A stretch of 64,000 nucleotides of DNA from Methanosarcina thermophila TM-1 (lineage in GTDB: Archaea; Halobacteriota; Methanosarcinia; Methanosarcinales; Methanosarcinaceae), in the NCBI RefSeq assembly GCF_000969885.1, contig NZ_CP009501.1:2742908-2806907 (forward strand), in the 5' to 3' direction. Within the stretch, counting starts at the first letter, position 1, and each line of letters opens with the position of its first letter. The translations under genes were made by a program, and so were the position numbers. Shown one piece after another: positions 23,837-32,694 of the stretch. The notes beneath the pieces were generated by a model. It ran no database searches. It was given only the letters and a program-made list of their open reading frames with translations, and was not told where the DNA came from.

Positions 23837-24166
23837 ATGGCTAAAAATGAAATCTTATCTGAAATAAAAAAAGCAGAGGAAAGCGCCAGGTTAATGATTG
23901 AAGAGGCCATTGACGCTAAAAACAAGCGCATTTCCGATGCTCGGGCTGAAGCCAGGGAAATCCTGAAACAGGCCGAAATTGATGCACATAAAGCTTCACA
24001 AGACTCTTTTAAAGAGGGTGAAAAAAAGATCCTGGAGGAAAGAGATAAGATCATCAACGATGGTGAGAAAAACGCATTAGCCATGTCCCAAAAAGCTCAA
24101 GCTAACATCGACAAATCCGTCAATTACCTTGTACAGGAGTTTGAGAGGGCGGTCCTTAATGAGTAG
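23837..24166 (+). CDS. ahaH: A1Ao ATP synthase subunit H
   Basis: A 109-residue peripheral-stalk subunit, the first gene of the ATP synthase operon. It is one long charged helix (Lys, Glu, Ala-rich, few aromatics) expected to form a coiled-coil with subunit E and to tie the A1 head to membrane subunit I. The start ATG follows GGAG by a normal distance. Its last codons overlap the ahaI start by 8 bp, so the two are translationally coupled. Length and order match the ahaHIKECFABDG operon of Methanosarcina. Confidence 0.92.
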
Positions 24167-26108
24167 ACCTAAAGAGATGACAAGGGCCGTTATTGTCGGG
24201 CACAAAAGCATTCTAAAAGAAACCATCGATGCATTGCATGATATAAATCTTTTTCACATCGAAGACTTTGTCGAAGATGAGTCTGGTTTTAAGATCAGCA
24301 AGCCATTTAAAAACGCAGAGGAAGTCTCTAAAAAGCTTGTGAAGATCCGTTCTATCGCCAATTATTTGGGGATCGAAAGCAAAGAACCGGTAGTTCAGAA
24401 ATCTGACGCTGTCCTGCGTGAGCTTGATTCGAAGTTGAATGAACTGGACAGGGCAATTTCAGCTAAAACACAATCAATTTCCCAGCTTGAAAATGAATTA
24501 AAGGATCTGGATTCTCAGAAAAAGGAAATCCTCCCTTATCTGTCCATAGATCTCGACTTCGAATATTACCGTGGCTATGAAAACCTGAAGGTTTTTGCAG
24601 GTACGGTAAAAAGCAACCTGGATGAAAGTCAGATTTCGAGTATCACACAAGCTTACGAACTGTACTACGACCCTCAATCAAAAGCAGTTGTACTGTTTGT
24701 AGCTAAAAATGATGCTGACAAAGTCTACGAAGTACTTCAGGGTCTTGGATTCAAAGAACTTAGAATTCCAGACAGAGGTGGTGTCCCAAGCGAACTGTTA
24801 AGATTCATTGAACAGAGAGAAGCTGAAGTCACTAGAAGGATCGAATCCTTAAAAGGTGAAATCGAGTCCTTGAAATCCAAGTACGCCGATTTCCTCCTTG
24901 CAAGCGACGAGGTCCTGAGTATCGAGAGTCAGAAGGCAGAACTGCCTCTTAGGATAGCTACATCTGCAAACGCGTTCATAATCGATGGTTGGACTCCAAC
25001 CGAAGATTACGACAAAGTTGTCAGTGTGGTTAATAGTGCCACTAATGGCAGGGCATACGTCACCAGCCTCGAAGTTAGTGAAGAGGAAGAGGAGAATGCT
25101 CCTGTCGAGTACAATAACTCAAAAGTTGTGGCACCGATGCAGGAGATTATGGATCTGTATTCCAGACCCAAATATACTGAAATTGATCCATCATCAGCGA
25201 TTTTCATAACCTTCCCACTGATGTATGGAATGATTCTCGGGGACATCGGATATGCACTGATCCTGGGAACGCTTGCGGTGGCTATCAAAAAACTGGTAAA
25301 GTCAGACGCAGTTAAGCCTCTCATGAATATTTTAATCTATTGTCAGATATCGGCATTTATATTTGGAATTCTTTATGGTGAGTTCCTGGGATTCCCTCTG
25401 GCAAGTACACATGGAGAACACGGTGTGGTGCCAGGTTTGCTTCCATTCTGGGAAACAATAACCCTGTTCCCTTCAATTGGAGGTGAGGAATTTACATTCC
25501 CGATCCACAGGTCTCACATGGTAATGACAATGATTGCAATAAGTGTCTTTGTAGGACTGCTTCATTTAAACCTTGGTTTCCTATTCGGATTTTCAAACAT
25601 TGCCAGACACCATGGTATGAAACATGCGGTCCTTGAAAAAGGCAGTTGGATCATTATCGAGCTTGGTGTGCTCGTTGCAGTTCTCGGCTATTTTGGCGTT
25701 GTTCCAGTGCTTACTTATCCAGGCGCTCTTATTCTCGTTATCGGCATTGTTATGCTCACCATGGGTGAGGGTATTAAAGGTCCGATCGAGTTGCCATCTC
25801 TAATGGGTAATGCACTTTCATACGCTCGTATTATAGCAGTAGGACTGTCTTCGATCTACATAGCAGGCACGGTAAATGATATTGCATTCAAGATGGTTTG
25901 GCCTGATCATTCTCAGATCGGCTTTACAGCAATAGCTGCAATACTTGTGTTCATACTCGGACATGGCCTTAACACTGTTCTGAGTATTATCGCTCCCGGA
26001 CTGCATGCACTCAGGTTGCAGTATGTAGAATTCTTTGGAAAATTCTATGAAGGCGGGGGCAGAAAATTCAACCCATTCGGATATATAAGAAAATACACGG
26101 AGGAATAA
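24159..26108 (+). CDS. ahaI: A1Ao ATP synthase subunit I (a subunit)
   Basis: A 649-residue membrane subunit carrying the ion half-channels next to the c-ring. The first ~320 residues are cytoplasmic, alpha/beta with a long coiled-coil (about 75-125 and 210-265). The C-terminal half has about eight membrane helices, including [30 protein letters not shown] and [16 protein letters not shown], whose Arg is the conserved residue that faces the c-ring carboxylate. I start at ATG 24159, which overlaps the ahaH stop, rather than 30 bp upstream. Four bases separate its stop from ahaK. Confidence 0.95.
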
Positions 26109-26112
26109 AAAA

Positions 26113-26358
26113 ATGACAGACGGAGCAACAGCAGGTCTCTTTTTGGACGCAGAAGGAATGAAAGCACTTGGTGCATCAATCGCAATCGCAGTAACTGGTC
26201 TTGCATCTGCAATAGCTGAAAAAGATATCGGTACAGCAGCAATCGGCGCAATGGCAGAAAACGAAGGATTATTCGGTAAAGGTCTAATCCTTACTGTCAT
26301 TCCAGAAACCATTGTTATCTTCGGTCTTGTCGTTGCATTGCTTATCAATTCTGCTTAA
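26113..26358 (+). CDS. ahaK: A1Ao ATP synthase subunit K (c-ring proteolipid)
   Basis: An 81-residue hairpin of two membrane helices that assembles into the rotor ring. Helix 1 is Gly/Ala-rich (ALGASIAIAVTGLASAIA), the polar loop contains EKDIGTAAIGAMAENE, and helix 2 has Glu65 in IPETIVIFGLV, the ion-carrying carboxylate. Single-hairpin form, one carboxylate per two helices, as in other Methanosarcina. It is needed in several copies per enzyme, and a cluster of strong hairpins directly follows the gene, consistent with differential expression from the rest of the operon. Confidence 0.96.
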   Translation: MTDGATAGLFLDAEGMKALGASIAIAVTGLASAIAEKDIGTAAIGAMAENEGLFGKGLILTVIPETIVIFGLVVALLINSA

Positions 26359-26360
26359 AT

Positions 26361-26533
26361 TTAAGAGCTTTCGCTCTTAAATCCCTTAGAGCATTGTTCT
26401 AAGCTTATTCGGGCTTTTTTTCCTTACCGAGTAAGCTTAGAACAGCTATAGTGCTCTAAGTTCCCCCTAGGTATCGTTGCACTCTAAGCAGCTTAGAGTT
26501 TTGCTCTAGGCTTTAGAGCACTTTTTTGCTCTA
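26361..26533 (+). promoter_or_regulatory. Hairpin cluster between ahaK and ahaE
   Basis: Five potential RNA hairpins in 173 bp. (1) 26361-26380, 8-bp stem TTAAGAGC/GCTCTTAA. (2) 26385-26460, a long stem: 9 bp CTTAGAGCA/TGCTCTAAG, a small internal loop, 13 bp TGTTCTAAGCTTA/TAAGCTTAGAACA and 5 more, 27 pairs in all, with a T-rich apical loop. (3) 26481-26499, ACTCTAAGC/GCTTAGAGT. (4) 26502-26520, TGCTCTA/TAGAGCA. (5) 26514-26533, TAGAGCA/TGCTCTA, which excludes (4). The last ends 9 nt before the ahaE ribosome binding site GGAGGTG. Likely roles are partial termination, RNA processing or mRNA stabilisation giving excess c subunit. Confidence 0.8.
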
Positions 26534-26554
26534 AATTTATTTGGAGGTGTAAGC

Positions 26555-27106
26555 ATGGGACTAGAGATCGTTGTAAAGGACATCCAAGAGGGTGCAAGAG
26601 CTGAGGTTTCCCGTATAAAAGCCGAAGGCGATGCAAAAGCCTCCGAGATCATAAATGAAGCTAAAGAAATACAAAAGAAAATGCTCGGAGACAGCCTTGC
26701 CAAAGCGGAAGAAGACCTCCGAAATCTGCACCAGCAGGTCATATCAAGTGCAAACCTGGAAGTAAAAAGAATTACGCTTAATAAGCGTAAGGAACTTCTG
26801 GATAAAGTTTATAACCAGACAGTTGAAAAAATCAAGTCAATGCCAGCATCCAAAAAAGAAGAGCTGTTGAAGCACATTCTCAACAAGTACGAAGCAAGTG
26901 GTGCTAGAGTTTACTCTTCTAAGGATTCAGAAGAAATTGTCAAAAAGTTAACCTCTCTGACTTACGCTGGCAATATTGACTGCATCGGCGGAGTTATTCT
27001 GGAAAACGAAGATGGATCAATCAGGTTAGATTTTACATACGATTCAATCCTGAAAGACGTATATGAACGTTCATTGAAGCAGATATCTGATATATTATAC
27101 GGGTGA
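26555..27106 (+). CDS. ahaE: A1Ao ATP synthase subunit E
   Basis: A 183-residue peripheral-stalk subunit. The N-terminal ~95 residues are a charged helix that pairs with subunit H (EGARAEVSRIKAEGDAKASEI), and the C-terminal ~85 residues form a compact alpha/beta domain that caps the catalytic head (CIGGVILENEDGSIRLDFTYDS). A strong GGAGGTG ribosome binding site precedes ATG 26555. It is the first gene after the intercistronic hairpin cluster and may be translated from a different mRNA pool from ahaHIK. Confidence 0.94.
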   Translation: MGLEIVVKDIQEGARAEVSRIKAEGDAKASEIINEAKEIQKKMLGDSLAKAEEDLRNLHQQVISSANLEVKRITLNKRKELLDKVYNQTVEKIKSMPASKKEELLKHILNKYEASGARVYSSKDSEEIVKKLTSLTYAGNIDCIGGVILENEDGSIRLDFTYDSILKDVYERSLKQISDILYG

Positions 27107-31614: not shown

Positions 31615-32244
31615 ATGGCTCAGCAGGACGTAAAACCAACTCGGTCGGAGCTAATTAATCTCAAGAAAAAGATTAAGCTGTCTGAAAGCGGGCACAAGCT
31701 CCTGAAGATGAAAAGGGATGGTCTTATTCTTGAGTTCTTCAAGATCCTTAACGAAGCAAGGAACGTCAGAACCGAGCTGGATGCTGCCTATGCAAGAAGT
31801 ACGGAAAAAATCAATCTAGCCTCTGCTGTGAATGGAATGATTGCAGTCCGATCAACTGCCTTTACAGCAAAGGAGTCTCCTGAAATCCAGCTTTCAGGGC
31901 ACAACATTATGGGTGTTGTGGTGCCAAGGATCAGCTCTACTGGAGTTCGCAAATCCCTCTACGAGAGAGGCTACGGTATTATCGGGACAAACTCGTATAT
32001 CGACGAGACTGCTGATGCCTATGAGGACCTTGTAGAAAAGATCATTACCGCTGCAGAGCTGGAAACAACAATGAAAAGGCTCCTTGATGAAATCGAGAGG
32101 ACCAAGAGACGTGTAAACGCTCTCGAGTTCAAGGTCATTCCCGAGCTCATTGAAACCATGAAGTACATCCGTTTCGCCCTTGAAGAAATGGAAAGGGAAA
32201 ACACCTTCAGGCTGAAGAGAATCAAGGCAAGAATTAGAGAGTAA
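31615..32244 (+). CDS. ahaD: A1Ao ATP synthase subunit D
   Basis: A 209-residue central rotor shaft. Two long antiparallel helices at the ends (KPTRSELINLKKKIKLSESGHKLLKMKRDGL and the C-terminal ERTKRRVNALEFKVIPEL region) form a coiled-coil; the middle is a short globular part. I start at ATG 31615; an in-frame GTG at 31606 overlapping the ahaB stop is the alternative. Length fits Methanosarcina homologues. Confidence 0.94.
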   Translation: MAQQDVKPTRSELINLKKKIKLSESGHKLLKMKRDGLILEFFKILNEARNVRTELDAAYARSTEKINLASAVNGMIAVRSTAFTAKESPEIQLSGHNIMGVVVPRISSTGVRKSLYERGYGIIGTNSYIDETADAYEDLVEKIITAAELETTMKRLLDEIERTKRRVNALEFKVIPELIETMKYIRFALEEMERENTFRLKRIKARIRE

Positions 32245-32257
32245 TCCTGATTTGAGC

Positions 32258-32425
32258 ATGGCAGCGTGTAACGACCGACCGAATCTGGTTGAAAGAGCAA
32301 TATATAAATTAGGTGAACCCGAAAACCAGGCCCGCCTGTTACAGGTGGCCTGGAGAATTTCCCTTTTAATGATGATTATGGGGTTCATCATTATAATAAA
32401 AACAATTTATCCCGAGTTTATGTGA
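32258..32425 (+). CDS. ahaG: A1Ao ATP synthase subunit G (small membrane protein)
   Basis: A 55-residue reading frame 13 bp after ahaD. The first ~33 residues are hydrophilic (ERAIYKLGEPENQARLLQ), followed by one membrane helix ISLLMMIMGFIIIIKTIY. Methanosarcina operons end in ahaG, a roughly 6-kDa protein of uncertain function, and position, size and topology all fit. ATG 32258 is the likely start, with a TTG two codons upstream as alternative. Whether it is part of the final enzyme or an assembly factor is not settled. Hairpin-forming AT-rich DNA follows, without a clear terminator. Confidence 0.8.
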   Translation: MAACNDRPNLVERAIYKLGEPENQARLLQVAWRISLLMMIMGFIIIIKTIYPEFM

Positions 32426-32694
32426 CCTGAATTTCAGGATATGAATAGTCCTGAAACCAGTCACAAACTCTTGTTTTATATAAGATTATCTGAATCTAGC
32501 ATGTAATTTTTTATACCTCATGTAATTTTTACACTTGTTTTTGGTAAACACTATTTCCTGCTATCATTTAGTTTAATCTCGCATATGTTTAATTTTAAAA
32601 CATCAGTTCAAAATTTTAATCTACTAGTAATACTGCTGAACGCTTTTAATTACTTAGAAAGCTATTTTAACGACAAGCTCAATCTTTATTTTAT

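Follow-up and report, generated by a model that had tools for sequence, protein, structure and literature searches.

The window, the 64,000-nucleotide stretch of the Methanosarcina thermophila TM-1 chromosome that was analyzed, contains an ATP synthase (aha) operon in the order ahaH (23837 to 24166), ahaI (ending at 26108), ahaK, ahaE, and then ahaC, ahaF, ahaA, ahaB, and ahaD, the last of which ends at 32244. As originally predicted, the operon has a sole large gap, the 196 nucleotides between ahaK and ahaE; at every other junction between ahaH and ahaD, the genes overlap or stand a few nucleotides apart. The original prediction placed a hairpin cluster at 26361 to 26533, which was correct in location but slightly short in extent, as the conserved feature fills the entire gap (Table 1).

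Table 1. Features of the ahaK-ahaE junction, in window coordinates
Feature	Position	Strand	Description
ahaK (atpK)	26113..26358	+	c-ring proteolipid gene, 81 aa; upstream neighbor of the gap
Complete intercistronic hairpin array	26359..26554	+	ahaK-ahaE gap, 196 nt
Hairpin 1	26359..26382	+	ATTTAAGAGC-TTTC-GCTCTTAAAT; probably ancestral, family-wide, immediately 3' of the ahaK stop codon
Hairpin 2, long composite stem	26385..26460	+	Outer CTTAGAGCA/TGCTCTAAG; inner 26395-26412 with 26427-26444
T7 run, hairpin 2 loop	26415..26421	+	T5 to T7 in 21 of 24 core species
Anti-SD segment	26471..26488	+	GTATCGTTGCACTCTAAG; nearly invariant; potential pairing partner of the start codon and ribosome-binding site of ahaE
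Hairpin 3	26481..26499	+	ACTCTAAG/CTTAGAGT; incompatible with the anti-SD pairing
Alternative hairpin	26491..26511	+	GCTTAGAG/CTCTAGGC; would form one arm of the three-way junction
Alternative hairpin	26502..26520	+	TGCTCTA-GGCTT-TAGAGCA; originally predicted hairpin
Last hairpin	26512..26535	+	TTTAGAGCA/TGCTCTAAA; loop with conserved T run; shares an arm with 26502-26520
ahaE ribosome-binding site	26543..26549	+	GGAGGTG
ahaE (atpE)	26555..27106	+	First A1-domain gene; downstream neighbor of the gap

Immediately 3' of ahaD lies a frame of 55 amino acids, MAACNDRPNLVERAIYKLGEPENQARLLQVAWRISLLMMIMGFIIIIKTIYPEFM (32258 to 32425, + strand), which has one likely membrane segment, falls under the usual ORF cutoff, and is presumably ahaG, the small last gene of the operon. 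A segment that overlaps part of this frame (32294 to 32489, + strand) has the second-strongest fold of the 628 segments compared below, with a z score of -6.0. Behind the frame and within the same segment are the inverted repeats CCTGAATTTCAGG and AGTCCTGAAACCAGTCAC, probably the end structure of the operon.

Fold and locus specificity of the ahaK-ahaE gap

How unusual is the fold of this gap? Its predicted energy is -86.7 kcal/mol, compared with -54.4 ± 4.2 kcal/mol for shuffled versions (z = -7.7), and 0 of 200 shuffles folded as well. The gap also ranks first (z = -9.0, the next being -6.0) among 628 intergenic segments of 120 to 196 nt, which were chosen by a simple ORF rule from about 464 kb of this genome, roughly 15% of its length, and folded on the relevant strand or strands.

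Much of the architecture is as first described. The 27-bp stem with a T-rich loop was found as 27 to 28 pairs joining 26385-26412 to 26427-26460, with a 6-nt one-sided bulge and a T-rich loop of 14 nt. Further stems had been attributed to the word CTCTAAG/CTTAGAG, and most arms do turn out to be versions of CTTAGAG(C) and (G)CTCTAAG. Hairpins that share an arm and cannot coexist are present too, at 26502-26520 and 26512-26535 (given earlier as 26514-26533). Since many arms are able to pair with many others, overlapping alternatives are to be expected, and this pair is one of several: 26481-26499 is exclusive both of 26491-26511 and of pairing with the ahaE ribosome-binding site. These two additional exclusive pairings matter at least as much as the one first proposed. 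A switch between 26502-26520 and 26512-26535 is without specific support, the arms varying so little in 24 species that covariation is uninformative either way. Because arms pair in more than one register, the number of hairpins counted per array depends on the finder used.

Several standard scans were applied as well. Bacterial terminator models picked out three hairpins with T-rich tails against 0.8 expected, a result that is not decisive for an archaeal host, and a scan of the gap with bacterial promoter models, applied to the same archaeal host, found none. A short reading frame in the gap (TTG CAC TCT AAG...) was dropped, as it breaks between species at the T run that follows.

Does the unit occur elsewhere? 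No second copy of the gap was found in the genome, a single contig of 3,127,379 bases, and hairpins built from the CTTAGAG word are about as frequent elsewhere in it as those of a reversed control. In 14 Methanosarcinaceae genomes, units with a U-rich loop are almost confined to the ahaK-ahaE locus. A dispersed REP- or MITE-like repeat was rejected because the unit shows no excess elsewhere in the genomes searched. No known riboswitch or RNA family was recognized either: Rfam 15 gave no match to a curated covariance model and returned only sub-threshold microRNA chance matches.

Distribution and covariation among relatives

To place the array in its family, 112 Methanosarcinaceae genomes, one per species and many of them drafts, were searched with AhaE; 103 matched, of which 102 yielded the gap. 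In 101 of the 102 (14 genera), a single hairpin with an energy of -5 kcal/mol or lower, typically -10 to -14, stands behind ahaK, and in most genomes it starts 0 to 20 nt past the stop codon. In 11 genera, a gap of about 43 to 125 nt contains essentially a single hairpin, which lies past the ahaK stop and before the ahaE ribosome-binding site and usually has the letters TTTAAGAGC-loop-GCTCTTAAA. Three genera have different letters: the first has GGAGGCGG...CCGCCTTT and GGGGCCGG...CCGGCCTC, the second AAAGGGTA...TACCCTTT, and the third AAGAGCGGG...CCCGCCCTT. Gaps with about 5 to 8 related hairpins are found in Methanosarcina (29 genomes, 175 to 218 nt) and two sister genera (5 genomes, 215 to 267 nt). 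In one of the sister genera, Tandem Repeats Finder resolves the array into plain 25-nt tandem copies, 5 to 6 in each; run on the window itself, the program found no array, presumably owing to divergence of the copies. Elsewhere in the order, 36 genomes from four other families have gaps of mostly 2 to 34 nt, and no comparable hairpin was found in them. From this distribution, we infer that one hairpin is ancestral to the Methanosarcinaceae and was multiplied in the Methanosarcina group by unit duplication.

The relatives also show local variations. In one sister genus (L056 and L057; genomes G005 and G004), extra copies precede hairpin 1, partly in tandem (ATCGATTTTAAGAGCGGTCCCGCT) or as a GTGGGGC...CCCCAC hairpin, so that expansion seems to have occurred more than once and to have affected both of the array's ends. 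The sister genus with tandem units (L053 to L055) has a CACTCCA...TTGGAGTG hairpin upstream of ahaE, at about positions 140 to 190 of the gap; it resembles the ribosome-binding site TTGGAGGTG and its complement and is a possible mimic. One genus in another family (L183 and L184; genomes G114 and G126) has an unrelated hairpin of 8 to 9 bp, TTCGTGTTC...GAACACGAA, spanning the ahaK stop codon, which is possibly an independent case.

Covariation among relatives had been named beforehand as a check on the proposal, and it was positive for both major stems. (i) In hairpin 1, 90.8% of cells are paired in 34 chosen sequences from 14 genera, versus 28 to 57% when the arms are slid. (ii) In the long stem, the figures for 24 Methanosarcina species are 95.6% versus 31 to 53%. 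(iii) Double-sided changes, whose counts are inflated by related sequences, number 11 versus 3.0 in shuffles for hairpin 1 and 26 versus 8.1 for the long stem, with which the slid controls and independent letters in distant genera agree. Identity between species is 99.1% in the arms of hairpin 1, 95.5% in the ahaE-side half, and 82.1% at ahaE four-fold sites. In the inner long stem, identity falls to 69%, yet the pairs are kept, with compensatory changes, while the outer stem is nearly invariant. This pattern points to two modes of constraint, structure alone in the inner long stem and sequence as well in hairpin 1 and the ahaE-side half. On this comparative sequence evidence, the gap is a real RNA feature.

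Could the array nonetheless have no RNA function and represent neutral repeat expansion or a dispersed repetitive element? The plain tandem duplication seen in one sister genus would fit, but conservation beyond that of four-fold sites largely refutes the idea by itself, and both the covariation and the absence of enrichment of the unit at other loci in the searched genomes add to the case against it. We consider it extremely improbable.

Possible roles in expression across the junction

What, then, might the element do? The reading to which we lean, tentatively and with somewhat less than even confidence, is that it uncouples ahaH, ahaI, and ahaK (the membrane part, with the many-copy c subunit last) from ahaE, ahaC, ahaF, ahaA, ahaB, and ahaD (the A1 part) by a combination of processing or partial ending, protection, and a structured leader. 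Cleavage, or partial ending, of the polycistronic mRNA would most likely take place within the gap's U-rich loops and linkers. Hairpin 1, backed by the rest of the array, would then protect the ahaK 3' end from 3'-to-5' decay, leaving more c-subunit mRNA than A1 mRNA to persist, while the structured half adjoining ahaE would limit initiation there. The probable outcome would be unequal amounts of the enzyme parts encoded on the two sides of the gap.

Published work on related operons bears on this proposal. In Methanosarcina acetivorans, arrays showed a 2-fold increase of ahaECFABD on acetate that the remaining aha genes did not share, a step that falls at the ahaK-ahaE junction (PMC2838876). 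RT-PCR in the same paper found aha transcripts 2-fold up on acetate for three representative genes, one of them ahaI, which lies upstream of the junction, and the step on the arrays may therefore be a technical effect (PMC2838876). The c-subunit gene of the Clostridium cellulolyticum ATP synthase is flanked by processing sites, followed by a 3' stem-loop, and represented by 3 to 5 times the transcript of its neighbors (PMC4423207). The Methanococcus maripaludis ATP-synthase operon has no internal terminator, and terminators inserted between atpK and atpE and between atpF and atpA lowered downstream genes and growth (PMC10450193). The claim that the region adjusts expression across the junction is therefore a reasonable one, given the covariation, the position at the edge of the c-subunit cistron throughout the family, the M. 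acetivorans step (PMC2838876), and the bacterial precedent (PMC4423207). A role in stoichiometry is plausible. However, the same multicopy ring is made in sister families whose gaps are short and lack a comparable hairpin, which means that stoichiometry in itself can be achieved without the element. A further counterpoint to uncoupling is that protecting the 3' end would increase ahaH and ahaI too, although few copies of these are needed.

The main rival to processing and protection is translational insulation, in which the hairpins behind the ahaK stop would do nothing but keep ribosomes that leave the heavily translated ahaK from reinitiating at ahaE, with RNA ends unaffected. In most genomes, the family-wide hairpin sits where the ribosome termination structure lies in bacteria, a structure enriched at gaps longer than 25 nt (PMC7518266), and insulation accounts for the sufficiency of a single hairpin in 11 genera. 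On the other hand, that structure was described for bacteria and is generally depleted inside operons (PMC7518266), and insulation alone does not explain 5 to 8 hairpins, a near-invariant ahaE-side half, or the reported transcript difference. We judge it rather unlikely as the only function, though the two activities can act together.

Do the T runs instead end transcription? Partial termination would have RNA polymerase and the archaeal factor aCPSF1 stop at the T runs of the gap, with only a fraction of transcripts reaching ahaE. In archaeal operons, internal terminators produce steps in expression, and aCPSF1 works on U-tracts (PMC8716108, PMC10450193). All 34 array-bearing genomes have runs of T5 to T7 in the gap and so contain the U-tract of at least 4 seen at aCPSF1-dependent internal terminators, but these tracts are single and lie inside hairpin loops, while efficient aCPSF1 binding needed two U4 tracts. 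Moreover, most archaeal terminators need no hairpin (PMC8716108), and a T5 run is present in only 26 of the 59 single-hairpin genomes with a gap. This explanation seems distinctly unlikely.

The half of the gap next to ahaE raises a separate question. In the consensus fold, the ribosome-binding site and start codon of ahaE are paired with the anti-SD segment, and two hairpins enclosed by this pairing complete a three-way junction. This half might be a regulated switch, alternating between the junction, which would cover the ribosome-binding site, and a hairpin 3 form that would free it, in response to a ligand, a protein, or temperature. In the isolated half, the covered form is predicted at -27.8 kcal/mol versus -18.1 kcal/mol for hairpin 3 plus the last hairpin, and the anti-SD pairing has a probability of at least 0.98 in 23 of 24 species. 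In addition, GTATCGTTGC is, like the anti-SD segment, nearly invariant, though unpaired in the simple hairpin reading. However, the opening cost of the ahaE site ranks only 14th of 103 genes of the same genome, selected by a simple start-and-SD rule, and exceptional covering of the site was rejected on that basis. With the ahaK end included in the fold, the cost is mostly 2 to 3 kcal/mol and other partners often win. Covariation is absent for want of any variation, the sister genera do not conserve the anti-SD segment, and Rfam offers no match. The switch is a possibility suggested by modeling, not a finding, and we think it very unlikely. Equally faint is the prospect of a locus-specific archaeal RNA regulator in which the number of units would set, and the ahaE-side junction would gate according to growth substrate or energy state, the amount of A1 part made per c-ring.

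Relation to known systems

The gap bears on how archaea make unequal subunit amounts from one ATP-synthase operon. As a defined, conserved element in a genus amenable to genetics, with natural variants of 1 to about 8 hairpins in related genera, it allows direct measurement of how hairpin number affects the AhaK:AhaE ratio.

How does it compare with elements already described? The REP/BIME sequences of enterobacteria are palindromic units located between cistrons and dispersed through the genome, some of them reported to stabilize upstream mRNA. The present unit is also palindromic and intercistronic, but it is confined to one locus. The ribosome termination structure is a stable hairpin immediately 3' of a stop codon where the intergenic distance exceeds 25 nt (PMC7518266), and a stable structure does lie right behind the ahaK stop in a gap longer than this. 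That structure, in contrast, is bacterial, single, and usually depleted within operons, whereas the present element is intra-operonic, expanded, and of locus-specific sequence. The sites of internal operon transcription termination (ioTTSs) used by aCPSF1 in M. maripaludis (PMC10450193) similarly involve U-runs and an expression step within an archaeal operon, but the ATP-synthase operon of that species lacks one, and archaeal termination is mostly hairpin independent.

The systems of selective RNA processing and stabilization (SRPS), known from the cip-cel and F-type ATPase operons of C. cellulolyticum, place intergenic stem-loops 3' of a subunit gene needed in excess (PMC4423207). The ahaK-ahaE gap shares this arrangement: within an operon, a stable stem-loop closes the 3' side of a cistron in high demand. 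In the bacterial ATPase operon, the cistron is again that of the c subunit, and the number of stem-loops again varies between related species (PMC4423207). The ahaK-ahaE element differs in that its host is archaeal, with other nucleases, and that one gap holds a row of related hairpins copied from a unit. If uncoupling by processing and 3'-end protection proves true, the gap would be an archaeal counterpart, independently evolved, of the stem-loop behind the c-subunit gene in the bacterial ATP-synthase operon.
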